Shown piece after piece: positions 1,747-5,201 of a stretch of DNA of 36,546 bases. Location: positions 1-36,546 of the forward strand of contig CAIYBN010000016.1 of NCBI GenBank assembly GCA_903924465.1. The letters run 5' to 3'. The notes under the pieces were generated by a model. The model made no database searches and was not told the origin of the DNA. It saw nothing but the letters and a program-made list of their open reading frames with translations. Numbering within the stretch: the stretch's first letter is position 1; each line of letters starts with the position of its first letter. Position numbers and translations under genes: made by a program. The DNA comes from an uncultured Myxococcales bacterium (lineage in GTDB: Bacteria > Myxococcota_A > UBA9042).

Positions 1747-2382
1747 CTAGCTCGTGACGCCCGTGCCCAACGGACAGGCCACGCCGGTGCCACCGAGCCC
1801 GCAGTAGCCGTCCGGATTCTTGTGCAAATACTGCTGATGCTCGTCCTCGGCGAAGTAGAACGGCCCGGCAAGCGCGATTTCCGTTGTGATGACGCCGCGT
1901 CCGGCGCTGGTCAGCGCGACCTGGTACGCGTCCCGCGATGCGCGCGCTGCCTGCAATTGGTCGGTGTCGGCGCAGAAAATCGCCGATCGATACTGCGTGC
2001 CCACGTCCCCGCCTTGGCGAAAACCCTGAGTCGGATCGTGATTCTCCCAAAAGATCTGGAGCAGTTGCGCGAATGGGACGCGATCCGGATGGAAAACGAC
2101 CTGAACGCACTCCGCATGACCGGTTCTGCCGGTACACGTCTCGCGATACGTCGGGTTTGGCGTGAAACCGCCGGAAAATCCAACCGCTGTGCTGATCACG
2201 CCAGGCGTTTGCCAGAACTTGCGCTCAGCGCCCCAATAGCAGCCCATGCCGAACCACGCGATGGCGCTGCCTGGCGCGAAGGGGGCAGTCAGCGGCGCAC
2301 CGAGCACGACGTGACGCGGCGCAACGGGCATCGGCGTCACTCGCCCCGGCAATGCTTGCTCCGCGGTCACCATGCTCGGCAT
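1747..2382 (-). CDS. msrA: peptide-methionine (S)-S-oxide reductase MsrA
   Basis: MsrA reduces the S-epimer of methionine sulfoxide in proteins, using thioredoxin or a similar donor. The 211-residue protein has the active-site motif GCYWG with nucleophilic Cys48, the conserved segments GGFTPNPTYREVCTG-like, HAECVQV and FWENHDPT, and the C-terminal recycling cysteines Cys194 and Cys203. This matches the three-cysteine layout of E. coli MsrA. About 40 N-terminal residues precede the catalytic core and do not look like a clear signal peptide. The ATG follows the stop codon of the upstream methyltransferase/ATP-grasp gene by 9 nt, with AGG upstream, so it is very likely the last gene of that operon. 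Confidence 0.93.
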   Translation of the reverse strand: MPSMVTAEQALPGRVTPMPVAPRHVVLGAPLTAPFAPGSAIAWFGMGCYWGAERKFWQTPGVISTAVGFSGGFTPNPTYRETCTGRTGHAECVQVVFHPDRVPFAQLLQIFWENHDPTQGFRQGGDVGTQYRSAIFCADTDQLQAARASRDAYQVALTSAGRGVITTEIALAGPFYFAEDEHQQYLHKNPDGYCGLGGTGVACPLGTGVTS

Positions 2383-2391
2383 TCCACACCT

Positions 2392-4323
2392 TCACGCAAT
2401 CGATTGGACCCGCGCTTCGACATCACCAACGGCGTCGCTGGGCTGCAGACCGAGCCGCAGATTGGCCGCGGCGACGATCGCCTGAAGCAGATCGCCATAG
2501 CTCCAGTTCGCCCATTGCGCCATCAAATTCAGCTTGCCGTCCCAGCACCAGCCGGGATTCGGGTTGACTTCCAACAGCTTGATCTCGCCGTCCGCGGCCG
2601 TCCGGAAGTCAAAGCGCGCGTAGTCGCGACATCCCAGGCGCTCAAACAACCGCGCAGACCACTGCACCAAACGCTGCCGTTGCCCGTGCTCCAACTGCGC
2701 CTGGCAGAAGCGGATATCGGTCCAGTACGGCGACTCCGGATGCCATTTCGACTCGTAGCCGAGAATCTGCGGCGCGCCCGGCGGCAGCGCGCTGAAGTCG
2801 ACTTCCAGAATCGGCAGCGGCTGCAGGTCAAGGCCAGGATTGCCGATCAACGCAACCGAATACTCCGCGCCCGGCAGGAATTCCTGCACGATGAGACCGC
2901 GATCCGGCAATTCCGCGCGCAGCTCTTTGACCCGCTGGCGCATCTCCGCGACGCTGTGCACGACGGCGGCGACCGGAATGCCGAGACTGCCGTCGCCCAC
3001 ATTCGGCTTGACGATCGCCGGGAACGCCAGCGCCGGTGCCGGATCCTCGTCGGTCTGCGCGACGTACGACTCGCGGGGCACGGGCACGCCCATCGACGCG
3101 GCGATCGCCCGCACGTGCGCCTTGTCCGCGCACAGGCCCAAGCACGCGGGCGCTGCACCGGTGTAGGGCCGACCGAACACCTCCAGCAGCGCCGGCACAT
3201 GCAGTTCCCGCGCCGGGTCGTTGTGCAGGCCTTCGTCGCAGAAATTCACGACCAAATCCGCGTCGTCCTCGGCCAACAGGGTCGCGAACTGCGCGTGGCG
3301 ATCCAGAAAACGCACGGTCACGTCGGGCCAACGCGCGATCTCGCGTTTCAGGCGGTCGACCGTGTCCAGATCCTCGGCATTGAACGCGCCATCGCGTTTG
3401 ACCGGGTCCGGCAAGCGCGGGTCGCCCAGCAACACCGTCAGCCGCTGCTTTTCCCCGCGGACCTGCGCCAGCACCTGACCACGCTCGGCCACGCGCGCCG
3501 TGATGAACACGCGGTGCGCCATCATGCCCAAATCCTGATCGCGCGAGGAAGCCGCCTCAAGCACGTCATGCTCCGCGATCGCCGTGAAGCCGGCACGCGT
3601 CAACAGATCGGCCACCTGCTGCCGGTCATAGAGCCGTTCGGCGTAGAACTGGTCCACCAGAATGCCGCGCGTCGCATGGACAATCACTTCCCGGCACACC
3701 AGCCGCTGACCATCGGCGGACAACTGCCGCTCGCGCACCACGAGTTCCTGGGCGTTCAGCCATTCCCACGATCGCGGCTCATGGTTGCGCCGCACCCAAT
3801 CGCCGTCGGTCAGGTCCATCGCCAGCAGGCCACCGGGCTTCAACGCGCGCCGTACGGCATCGAGCACCACGAGATCGTCATCGGCATGCTGGAAATAGCC
3901 GAAGCTGTTGCCCATCATCGCCACGCAATCCAAGCGCCCGCGCGGCAGGGCCAGCTTGCGTGCCTCGCCCAGCGTGAACCGCACGGGCATGCCCGTCTGC
4001 TTCGCCCGCCGCCGCGCCACGCTCAACAGGTAGCGCGACTGGTCGATGCCATGGGCGTGTTGAAAGCCGCGCGCTGCCAGCTCCAAGGTGTGGCGCCCTT
4101 GGCCACAACACAGGTCCAGAATCTTCTGGTCCGGCTTCAACTCCGTCGCCCGCACCAACAGATCGACCTCAGCCGACGTGTTGTCGGCGTTTTCCACCAC
4201 GTCGCCATCGGTCTTCAGGTAGTTCGCATTGAACAGCGTGCGCCACCATTCGGGCGGCAAGTGCGGCTCCAAATCAGCCAGCGGGCCGAGGGTGCGATGG
4301 CGATGCGAGGGCGGGCGTGGCAT
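2392..4323 (-). CDS. fusion protein: class I SAM-dependent methyltransferase + D-Ala-D-Ala-ligase-like ATP-grasp domain
   Basis: The 643-residue protein has two enzyme domains. Residues 1 to about 285 form a class I methyltransferase with SAM motif I LDLCCGQGRH (about 69-78), the upstream family segment with NANYLKTDGD, and a post-motif LKPGGLLAMDLTDGDW. Residues about 290-625 form an ATP-grasp ligase: CADKAHVRAIAASMGVPVP, the nucleotide-binding loop PAIVKPNVGDGSLGI, VQEFLPGAEYSVALIG, and the metal-binding ending EVNPNPGW from about residue 585. ATP-grasp ligases of this type join a carboxylate to an amine through an acyl phosphate. The substrate is unknown, but methylation plus ligation in one chain suggests tailoring of a peptide or amino-acid product. 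The ATG has CGGAG 6 nt upstream. It lies 48 nt after a SET gene and 9 nt before msrA. No signal peptide or membrane segment is visible, so it is probably cytoplasmic. Confidence 0.85.
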   Translation of the reverse strand: MPRPPSHRHRTLGPLADLEPHLPPEWWRTLFNANYLKTDGDVVENADNTSAEVDLLVRATELKPDQKILDLCCGQGRHTLELAARGFQHAHGIDQSRYLLSVARRRAKQTGMPVRFTLGEARKLALPRGRLDCVAMMGNSFGYFQHADDDLVVLDAVRRALKPGGLLAMDLTDGDWVRRNHEPRSWEWLNAQELVVRERQLSADGQRLVCREVIVHATRGILVDQFYAERLYDRQQVADLLTRAGFTAIAEHDVLEAASSRDQDLGMMAHRVFITARVAERGQVLAQVRGEKQRLTVLLGDPRLPDPVKRDGAFNAEDLDTVDRLKREIARWPDVTVRFLDRHAQFATLLAEDDADLVVNFCDEGLHNDPARELHVPALLEVFGRPYTGAAPACLGLCADKAHVRAIAASMGVPVPRESYVAQTDEDPAPALAFPAIVKPNVGDGSLGIPVAAVVHSVAEMRQRVKELRAELPDRGLIVQEFLPGAEYSVALIGNPGLDLQPLPILEVDFSALPPGAPQILGYESKWHPESPYWTDIRFCQAQLEHGQRQRLVQWSARLFERLGCRDYARFDFRTAADGEIKLLEVNPNPGWCWDGKLNLMAQWANWSYGDLLQAIVAAANLRLGLQPSDAVGDVEARVQSIA

Positions 4324-4371
4324 GAAAACTCCGAACGCGAGTTGGACAGGCAGATTTTGCGCGGCGAACGG

Positions 4372-4746
4372 TTACAGGACTTCGCCAAACCACATCGGCT
4401 GGCAGTCCGCGGGATCGCCGTTGTAGTTGATCGTCACCTCTTCGCCAGCCGCGATGTCGCGCAGCGCCACGAACTCGACCTCATTGGCGTCGATATGTTT
4501 GATGTAGACGGCCGCCGGACTGTAGCTGTGGTTGTACAGCGAGCCAAAGCCAAGCGCGAACGCAGCGTGCTGGGATTCCGCGCCCCAAGCGTAGCAATAG
4601 TGAAAAAATACCGTCTCTTCGATGTGCGGCCATTGCTCCGCGGGAATGAACAGCACCGGCGCGCGCTCAATCGTCTCGCCTTTGGCAATGGGCGTATCGG
4701 TAATCACGCCACGGCCCTTTCCTGGGGTATGCACAGCCTTCAACAT
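4372..4746 (-). CDS. small SET-domain protein (putative lysine methyltransferase)
   Basis: This 124-residue protein is essentially a bare SET domain, the fold that moves a methyl group from SAM to a lysine side chain. Visible motifs are GKGRGV near the N-terminus, YNHSYSPAA in the position of the NHS/NHxCxPN signature, and ITINYNGD-like VTINYNGD with the likely catalytic tyrosine. It lacks the cysteine-rich post-SET zinc segment of its neighbour. The ATG at 4746 has AAAGGA 8 nt upstream; the longer reading from a TTG at 4764 is less likely. It begins 26 nt after the second SET gene and is followed 48 nt later by the methyltransferase/ATP-grasp fusion. The substrate may be a protein, a peptide or a small amine. 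Confidence 0.85.
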   Translation of the reverse strand: MLKAVHTPGKGRGVITDTPIAKGETIERAPVLFIPAEQWPHIEETVFFHYCYAWGAESQHAAFALGFGSLYNHSYSPAAVYIKHIDANEVEFVALRDIAAGEEVTINYNGDPADCQPMWFGEVL

Positions 4747-4772
4747 CAGCAGAATCCTTTCCAAATGGTTCG

Positions 4773-5201
4773 TCAGCCGTCCACGAGGCGGTAGCCGTCA
4801 ATGCTACCCTGGCAGTTGGCCGTGCCACAGGCGCAGCGAAAACTCCAACGCGCGTCCCAGAAGAACGATTCAGGGTGAGCGAAAAATTCGCTGCGCCGGG
4901 CGTCGTTGTAGCTGATGGCGAATTCGGCACCGGCTGCAACGGGCGCAATGGTGACGATGTTCAAGTCGTCGTCGACCGTGCAATTCGGCGTGCATGCGTG
5001 ATTGACGTAGCGCGCGTCCGTATGAGGAATCAGCCAATGCATGTCGTCGATCAGCAGCGCGTGGCGCACTTCCGACTCCGGAACTTGCTCCCACAGCACC
5101 TGCGGACCTTCAAACCGCGCCACGGCAACGCCAGCCGCGACATCTACGGCAGCCACCAGCGATTTTCCATAGGCATTTTCCGTCACGCGTGCGAGCGACA
5201 A
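4773..5201 (-). CDS. SET-domain protein with post-SET zinc motif (putative lysine methyltransferase)
   Basis: The protein has a SET core with AYGKSLVAA near the start, the near-canonical VNHACTPNC, and FAISYNDARR carrying the catalytic tyrosine. The C-terminal CACGTANC fits the post-SET pattern CxCx4C, so together with the Cys of NHACTPNC a complete zinc site of the kind seen in eukaryotic histone methyltransferases could form. The start is uncertain: TTG at 5201 has GGAG 7 nt upstream, TTG at 5216 gives five more residues, and GTG at 5186 is also possible. It is the first gene of the minus-strand operon SET, SET, methyltransferase/ATP-grasp, msrA, and is divergent from the kinase gene. The target is not known. 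Confidence 0.83.
   Translation of the reverse strand: MSLARVTENAYGKSLVAAVDVAAGVAVARFEGPQVLWEQVPESEVRHALLIDDMHWLIPHTDARYVNHACTPNCTVDDDLNIVTIAPVAAGAEFAISYNDARRSEFFAHPESFFWDARWSFRCACGTANCQGSIDGYRLVDG

Follow-up and report, generated by a model that had tools for sequence, protein, structure and literature searches.

The SET1-SET2-MTAG-MsrA locus

The stretch analysed here, 36,546 nucleotides of an uncultured Myxococcales bacterium (contig CAIYBN010000016.1; hereafter the window), carries on its minus strand four open reading frames (ORFs) in the order SET1-SET2-MTAG-MsrA, which encode two SET-domain proteins, a methyltransferase (MT) fused to an ATP-grasp ligase (AG), and a methionine sulfoxide reductase. 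The four genes and the intergenic gaps of 26, 48 and 9 nt given in the original prediction are confirmed by the ORF calls (with the ATG start of SET2), and the labels SET, SET, methyltransferase/ATP-grasp and MsrA all lie above the Pfam curated cut-offs. The genes and their flanks are:

4773..5216 or 4773..5201 (both TTG starts), minus strand: SET1, a small SET-domain methyltransferase (Pfam SET)
4372..4746 (ATG start; TTG at 4764 possible), minus strand: SET2, a minimal SET-domain methyltransferase (Pfam SET)
2392..4323, minus strand: MTAG, a methyltransferase/ATP-grasp fusion of 643 aa (Pfam Methyltransf_25 and Dala_Dala_lig_C)
1747..2382, minus strand: MsrA, peptide-methionine (S)-S-oxide reductase (TIGR00401, PMSR)
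354..1718, plus strand: dihydroorotase-like amidohydrolase, convergent flanking gene (Pfam Amidohydro_1, 74.4 bits)
5363..6727 (ATG at 5363; longest ORF from 5189), plus strand: Ser/Thr protein kinase, divergent flanking gene (Pfam Pkinase, 161.9 bits)

The four-gene unit is closed at both ends, as its downstream border is marked by the dihydroorotase-like gene, which ends 28 nt away, and its upstream border by the divergent kinase. A search for promoter consensus sequences at the operon found none, and two terminator-like sites were observed where chance alone would give 3.7; one of them, with its stem at 5302-5320, lies upstream of SET1 and the other inside MTAG.

Within its single ORF, MTAG comprises a class I S-adenosylmethionine-dependent methyltransferase (approximately residues 24-278; Methyltransf_25, 69.7 bits, cut-off 27) followed by a D-Ala-D-Ala-ligase-type ATP-grasp domain (approximately residues 291-626; Dala_Dala_lig_C, 73.8 bits, cut-off 24). 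By Pfam score and fold, the ligase half belongs to the D-Ala-D-Ala ligase C-terminal family (PF07478), but it falls short of the cut-off for a true D-alanine--D-alanine ligase (best NCBIfam match PRK01372, 107.7 bits versus 243), and no NCBIfam cut-off is reached among the best 25 of 78 families. After its EVN motif the ligase carries a GWCWDGK stretch that is invariant across a 55-row alignment and unlike the aligned stretch of VanA. The methyltransferase half was judged by sequence and Foldseek matches, the VIA list covering the ligase half only, and its best PDB profile match is NmbA (9ri2, E 4.5e-30). Among the matches listed, homologues of MTAG bear only generic names, such as 'D-alanine-D-alanine ligase' or 'methyltransferase domain-containing protein'. 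MsrA scores 200.3 bits against the equivalog-domain model TIGR00401 (cut-off 108.1, NCBIfam) and 197.3 bits against Pfam PMSR (cut-off 23.7).

Both small proteins score above the 22.4-bit cut-off of the Pfam SET family (PF00856), SET1 with 28.9 bits and SET2, taken from 4764, with 53.8 bits. In SET1, the NHxCxPN and YN motifs and three cysteines (CxCx4C) do not vary among the close relatives aligned (11 of 11, the window included), nor do N72, H73 and Y103 individually; in SET2, N72, H73 and Y108 are invariant in all 38 aligned sequences. We take CxCx4C to be the post-SET motif, and the NH pair and the tyrosine to be the SET NH motif and the catalytic tyrosine. The best PDB profile matches of SET1 are SET domains of the KMT2/NSD/SETD2 type (best E 1e-7), and those of SET2 are SET domain-containing protein 7 (5h6z, E 4.6e-26) and the viral vSET (1n3j, E 3e-20). 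The AlphaFold model of SET1, with a predicted local distance difference test score of 39.5, was too poor for a structure search.

Conservation in the genus and a rearranged second cluster

The order of the four genes is the same in the window and in three related genomes (G001, G002 and G004; loci L006, L007 and L008/L134). In a fourth, G003, the operon is divided between two contigs: on one, MTAG residues 1-35 adjoin SET2, and on the other MTAG from residue 55 adjoins MsrA (L009). MsrA thus adjoins MTAG in four of four same-genus loci (L006-L009), and the gap between SET2 and MTAG is a constant 48 nt in the window and three related genomes. Measured against the window, the ratio of non-synonymous to synonymous substitution rates (dN/dS) is 0.05-0.14 for SET1 and SET2, 0.10-0.15 for MTAG and 0.10-0.14 for MsrA, with 0.11-0.17 for the flanking dihydroorotase and 0.11-0.27 for the kinase, and all four operon genes are under purifying selection within the genus. 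Because the order is kept in related genomes and dN/dS is 0.05-0.15 in all four genes, the operon is not a product of chance.

At E<=1e-100, MTAG is found in five of 52 genomes of the class, all of the window's genus. A further operon-bearing lineage is likely, as judged from the proteins P0006, P0128 and P0134 (77, 75 and 80% to MTAG, SET1 and SET2, respectively). In G006, G007, G010, G012 and G027 the dihydroorotase neighbour is present and the operon genes are absent from the 6-9 kb around it, a comparison that shows absence of the operon and not the direction of the event.

A search for the gene set in 377 Myxococcota genomes, drawn evenly and covering 234 genera, found SET1, SET2, MT and AG together once more, rearranged, in a genome of another family (G322, locus L131), which answers the objection that synteny might not be conserved. 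The relevant genes there are:

6603-7610, minus strand: AG as a separate gene, matching the ligase half of MTAG
7607-8530, minus strand: MT as a separate gene, overlapping AG
8586-9620, plus strand: a second ligase (AG), between the MT/AG pair and the SET gene
9590-10414, minus strand: SET1 (41%) followed by SET2 (53%), fused into one protein of 274 aa

The fused SET1-SET2 gene lies 1-2 kb from the MT and AG genes, and its start is overlapped by 4 nt by a gene with ATP-binding cassette (ABC) membrane and ATPase domains. Its SET1 part has lost the proline of NHxCxPN but keeps the asparagine, the histidine and the three post-SET cysteines. The two clusters show opposite fusion states: in the window MT and AG are fused and the SET proteins split, whereas in G322 the SET proteins are fused and MT and AG split. 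We regard these reciprocal fusions as the strongest evidence that the proteins cooperate in two pairs, SET1 with SET2 and MT with AG, and that both pairs form part of a single set. From the fused gene of L131, SET1 and SET2 would be expected to form a heterodimer.

The phylum search also gives a measure of how rare the combination is. SET1 at E<=1e-40 occurs in eight of the 377 genomes (five of the genus, G322, G328 and G346), and MTAG at E<=1e-100 in at least ten (five of the genus, near-full-length in G278, G282 and G313, as the ligase half only in G117 and G322), the latter count being a lower bound since few candidates were scored per genome. Counted by genus, SET1 is present in 3, MTAG in 6 and both in 2 of 234 (hypergeometric P 0.0016, or 0.043 without the discovery genus), at cut-offs that were chosen after the matches had been seen; proximity of less than 5 kb in a 6.1-Mb genome adds a further factor of about 0.0016 to this P. 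In a careful MTAG tree, unrooted and computed with a simpler model without mixture, a branch supported at 98/97 separates the window clade, P0006, P0007 and L131 from 33 other sequences. A quick tree of 83 rows recovers the same grouping with support 96 and flags L131 as long. P0006 and P0007, which thus group with both clusters, are MTAG relatives of 71-77%.

Candidate functions of the operon

We tentatively favour, as a possibility held with some reserve, a small-molecule pathway in which the product of the four proteins would be a methylated metabolite resembling a dipeptide, not a ribosomal peptide, with the SET pair as tailoring enzymes. In this scheme, the MT domain would transfer a methyl group to the amine of an amino acid, much as its relative NmbA does with the cysteine amine of bacillithiol; the AG domain, Ddl-like with a different pocket, would activate a carboxylate as an acyl phosphate and join a second amino acid to it; side-chain methylation, at lysine N or methionine S, of either a building block or the product would fall to the SET pair; and MsrA would keep a methionine substrate, or methionines of the enzymes, reduced. 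A bolder version, in which the double SET was recruited from lysine methylation to small molecules, the product is a poly-methylated (betaine or sulfonium) dipeptide and MsrA keeps methionine reduced for S-methylation, strikes us as rather unlikely.

Several observations weigh against the metabolite pathway, beginning with the narrowness of the association: it is known from a single genus, together with one likely relative, and from one genome of a second family, which is the sole source of the second cluster. In the 15 kb around the L131 cluster no MsrA match was found, so that MsrA looks like an add-on of the window's clade. P0007, on the SET-linked branch with a 71% MTAG, has no SET match among all 10 SET1 and the best 120 of 831 SET2 matches. 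The SET1 tree leaves the SET1 proteins of the window and L131 ununited, their union being neither supported nor rejected (approximately unbiased test, p-AU 0.129). In the PDB profile search, SET1 matches histone methylases (1e-7) well above BurB (1e-3), the SET protein of a metabolite pathway. SET1 furthermore occurs without SET2, MT or AG in G328 and G346, where it adjoins an ABC-transporter gene, and in three Planctomycetota (G572, G647 and G686). SET2, with 15 matches at E<=1e-20 in 14 of the 377 genomes, has nine copies outside the genus and L131, with no MT, AG or SET1 in the stretches examined (one near a contig end). Finally, no SET ORF was detected with SET profiles in the examined flanks of 76 MTAG loci outside the genus, which extend at least 2 kb on both sides in 52 of the 76 and less than 500 nt on one side in nine.

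Those loci come from a wide distribution, as 146 loci encode a relative of MTAG, 80 of which were kept (Alphaproteobacteria, Planctomycetota, Nitrospinota, Hydrogenedentota and others), and, since MTAG is often found in other phyla with neither SET nor MsrA, the ligase seems not to need the SET enzymes. A SET gene exists somewhere in 15 of 45 non-genus MTAG genomes (45 of the 76 loci tested), in none of these 15 beside MTAG, as judged by contig number, on the assumption that contig numbers follow accession order, or by distance on two closed chromosomes with a SET gene. According to a home-made gene caller applied to the 76 loci, a same-strand gene lies within 200 nt downstream of MTAG in 38 and within 250 nt upstream in 26, with neither in 29, and the upstream gap measures 100-850 nt in 62 of the 71 loci with an upstream gene called. 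RsmB (9) is the most frequent Pfam family over 64 scanned neighbours, followed by TspO (6) and M32 carboxypeptidase (5), and there is no SET and no MsrA among the best 25 of 65 families; a partner family shared by the non-genus loci was therefore rejected, none being frequent enough. In L042, L058, L073, L078 and L085 the gene directly downstream of MTAG encodes about 500 aa, and these five are presumably the five M32 matches. No MTAG was found in 72,556 plasmid records (E 1e-30). The link between SET enzymes and ligase that the original prediction drew keeps the support of the G322 recurrence and lacks that of MTAG in the 76 flanks.

Neither MT nor AG was found in the seven of 32 weaker SET1-type genomes that were examined (G167, G243, G248, G310, G350, G397 and G415) or in the one of three weaker Planctomycetota matches (G468), nor in the stretches examined of viral contigs, nine of which have SET2-like and nine weak SET1-like matches. 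Contigs classed as viral in IMG/VR (L180-L187) encode SET2-like genes of 29-46% identity. In G012, of the window's family, a single ORF contains two SET2-type stretches, of which the first has no NH motif (L221, 5118-6020). G117 encodes a separate ligase that shares 51% identity with the ligase half of MTAG (L132, 5395-6378), with no MT match within 12 kb, and the window itself has tandem D-Ala-D-Ala-ligase-type ATP-grasp genes on the minus strand (28952-29923 and 29930-31318; 37% and 30% to the MTAG ligase half), upstream of which lie ORFs without Pfam matches.

The main rival, which we regard as possible though on the unlikely side, is that SET1 and SET2 methylate lysines of some cellular protein, be it a histone-like or DNA-binding protein, the neighbouring kinase or another, while MTAG makes a metabolite of its own and the shared transcript reflects regulation only. 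SET1 and SET2 most resemble histone methylases in their PDB profile matches, their homologues occur without MTAG, and, according to the portion of the source available, an archaeal SET protein acts in vitro on histone H4 and on the DNA-interacting MC1-alpha (PMC3980110). A possible substrate also lies near one homologue: in a Planctomycetota locus (L200, G686) roughly 1.3 kb separate a SET1 homologue (6195-6632) from an H1-like ORF rich in KKAAKK (7898-8332). The two-SET ORF of G012 lies divergently to a kinase that has 51% identity to part of the window kinase. Regulation alone would not predict that SET1-SET2 turns up again together with MT and AG in another family, rearranged and fused. The H1-like ORF of G686, a genome of the same phylum as a Phycisphaerae genome, is short and has KKAAKKAP repeats.

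A methylated and ligated ribosomal peptide or protein tag, encoded elsewhere, to which MTAG would ligate amino acids and which the SET pair would methylate, appears improbable. Peptide-modifying ATP-grasp ligases are known from the graspetides (PMC8939145, as far as the available text goes), and in L131 the SET1-SET2 gene directly adjoins the one encoding ABC membrane and ATPase domains; the AG half is, however, D-Ala-D-Ala-ligase-like by sequence and fold, and MTAG neighbours elsewhere have no shared partner family (RsmB at the top, 9 of 64). Among ORFs that overlap known genes by less than 40%, neither the operon nor its gaps yielded a small peptide ORF that is conserved. Nine such ORFs, of about 16-92 codons, lie in positions 1-8700 of the window, none of which falls within the operon. 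For the ORF that lies immediately upstream of SET1 (5232-5330), related loci give no match below E 0.1, and the only four ORFs whose matches pass 1e-5 are confined to 33-394, around a tRNA-Leu beyond the dihydroorotase. The operon thus lacks the precursor gene beside the ligase that marks ribosomally synthesized and post-translationally modified peptides (RiPPs) of the graspetide type. A check of the locus for a small conserved peptide gene having come back empty, the proposal that a peptide is made has no gene, and a RiPP would require its precursor to be encoded elsewhere in the genome.

That the four enzymes are co-transcribed yet functionally unrelated, an acquired MTAG having landed by a SET pair and a redox-repair gene, would fit the restriction of MTAG (E<=1e-100) to one genus within the class and the separate occurrence of the components elsewhere, but appears improbable given the G322 recurrence with opposite fusion states, the constant 48-nt gap and the purifying selection on all four genes. 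The observation of the operon is accordingly real and better supported than the sequence alone allowed, and the story of a peptide and its repair is not borne out.

In other parts of the window, a plus-strand ORF (24152-28171) has 13 MopE-type metal-binding stretches, a minus-strand ORF (6724-8595) is, by eye, similarly rich in D/N/C repeat sequence, and another (34008-35147, minus strand) joins an ActD subunit of alternative complex III to a cytochrome c domain. A PADLOC scan returned only methyltransferase- and ABC-ATPase-type matches.

Relation to known systems

Through this locus, SET genes of free-living bacteria gain a conserved partner in the form of a methyltransferase-ligase amenable to assays with free amino acids, and the reciprocal fusions, in naming two pairs, turn the question of the SET-pair substrate into a four-protein reconstitution. 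A literature search joining SET domain, ATP-grasp, methyltransferase and MsrA found no publication. A 2009 survey by Iyer and colleagues reportedly, to judge by its title, treats the part that ATP-grasp amidoligases play in making metabolites and modifying peptides. A search for SET combined with an ATP-grasp-type domain, which did not cover that survey, found, among the papers listed, only the eukaryotic hTTLL12, and the term 'set domain' is not mentioned in the available parts of the text of PMC4431377, PMC2922099 and PMC8939145. Bacterial SET proteins are treated as host-chromatin modifiers in the accessible portion of a review (PMC3980110).

Ddl/VanA-type ligases share the ATP-grasp family of MTAG, which lies far below the Ddl cut-off and is fused to a methyltransferase. 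NmbA, the best PDB relative of the MT half, methylates the cysteine amine of bacillithiol (PMC6336425; PMC12719100, in the parts available) and is, as deposited (9ri2), a 266-aa chain without a ligase half. BurB is, according to the accessible text of PMC12542666, a bacterial SET protein of a metabolite pathway that methylates free methionine at S; its profile similarity to SET1 is weak (E 0.001), and, because it is described there as binding methionine by main-chain contacts, it offers no diagnostic side chains for comparison. The closest solved relatives of SET2 are 5h6z and vSET (1n3j), while SET2 itself comes from a bacterium and has SET1 and a ligase gene as neighbours. A parallel to the combination is hTTLL12, in which a SET-like domain is joined to a tubulin-tyrosine-ligase-like, ATP-grasp-like domain, and which, in the part of the source available, is without critical residues and shows no methylation or ligation in vitro (PMC3520985). 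Both systems combine SET with an ATP-grasp-type ligase; the bacterial SET proteins, in contrast, keep their motifs, and the ligase half of their partner is Ddl-like.

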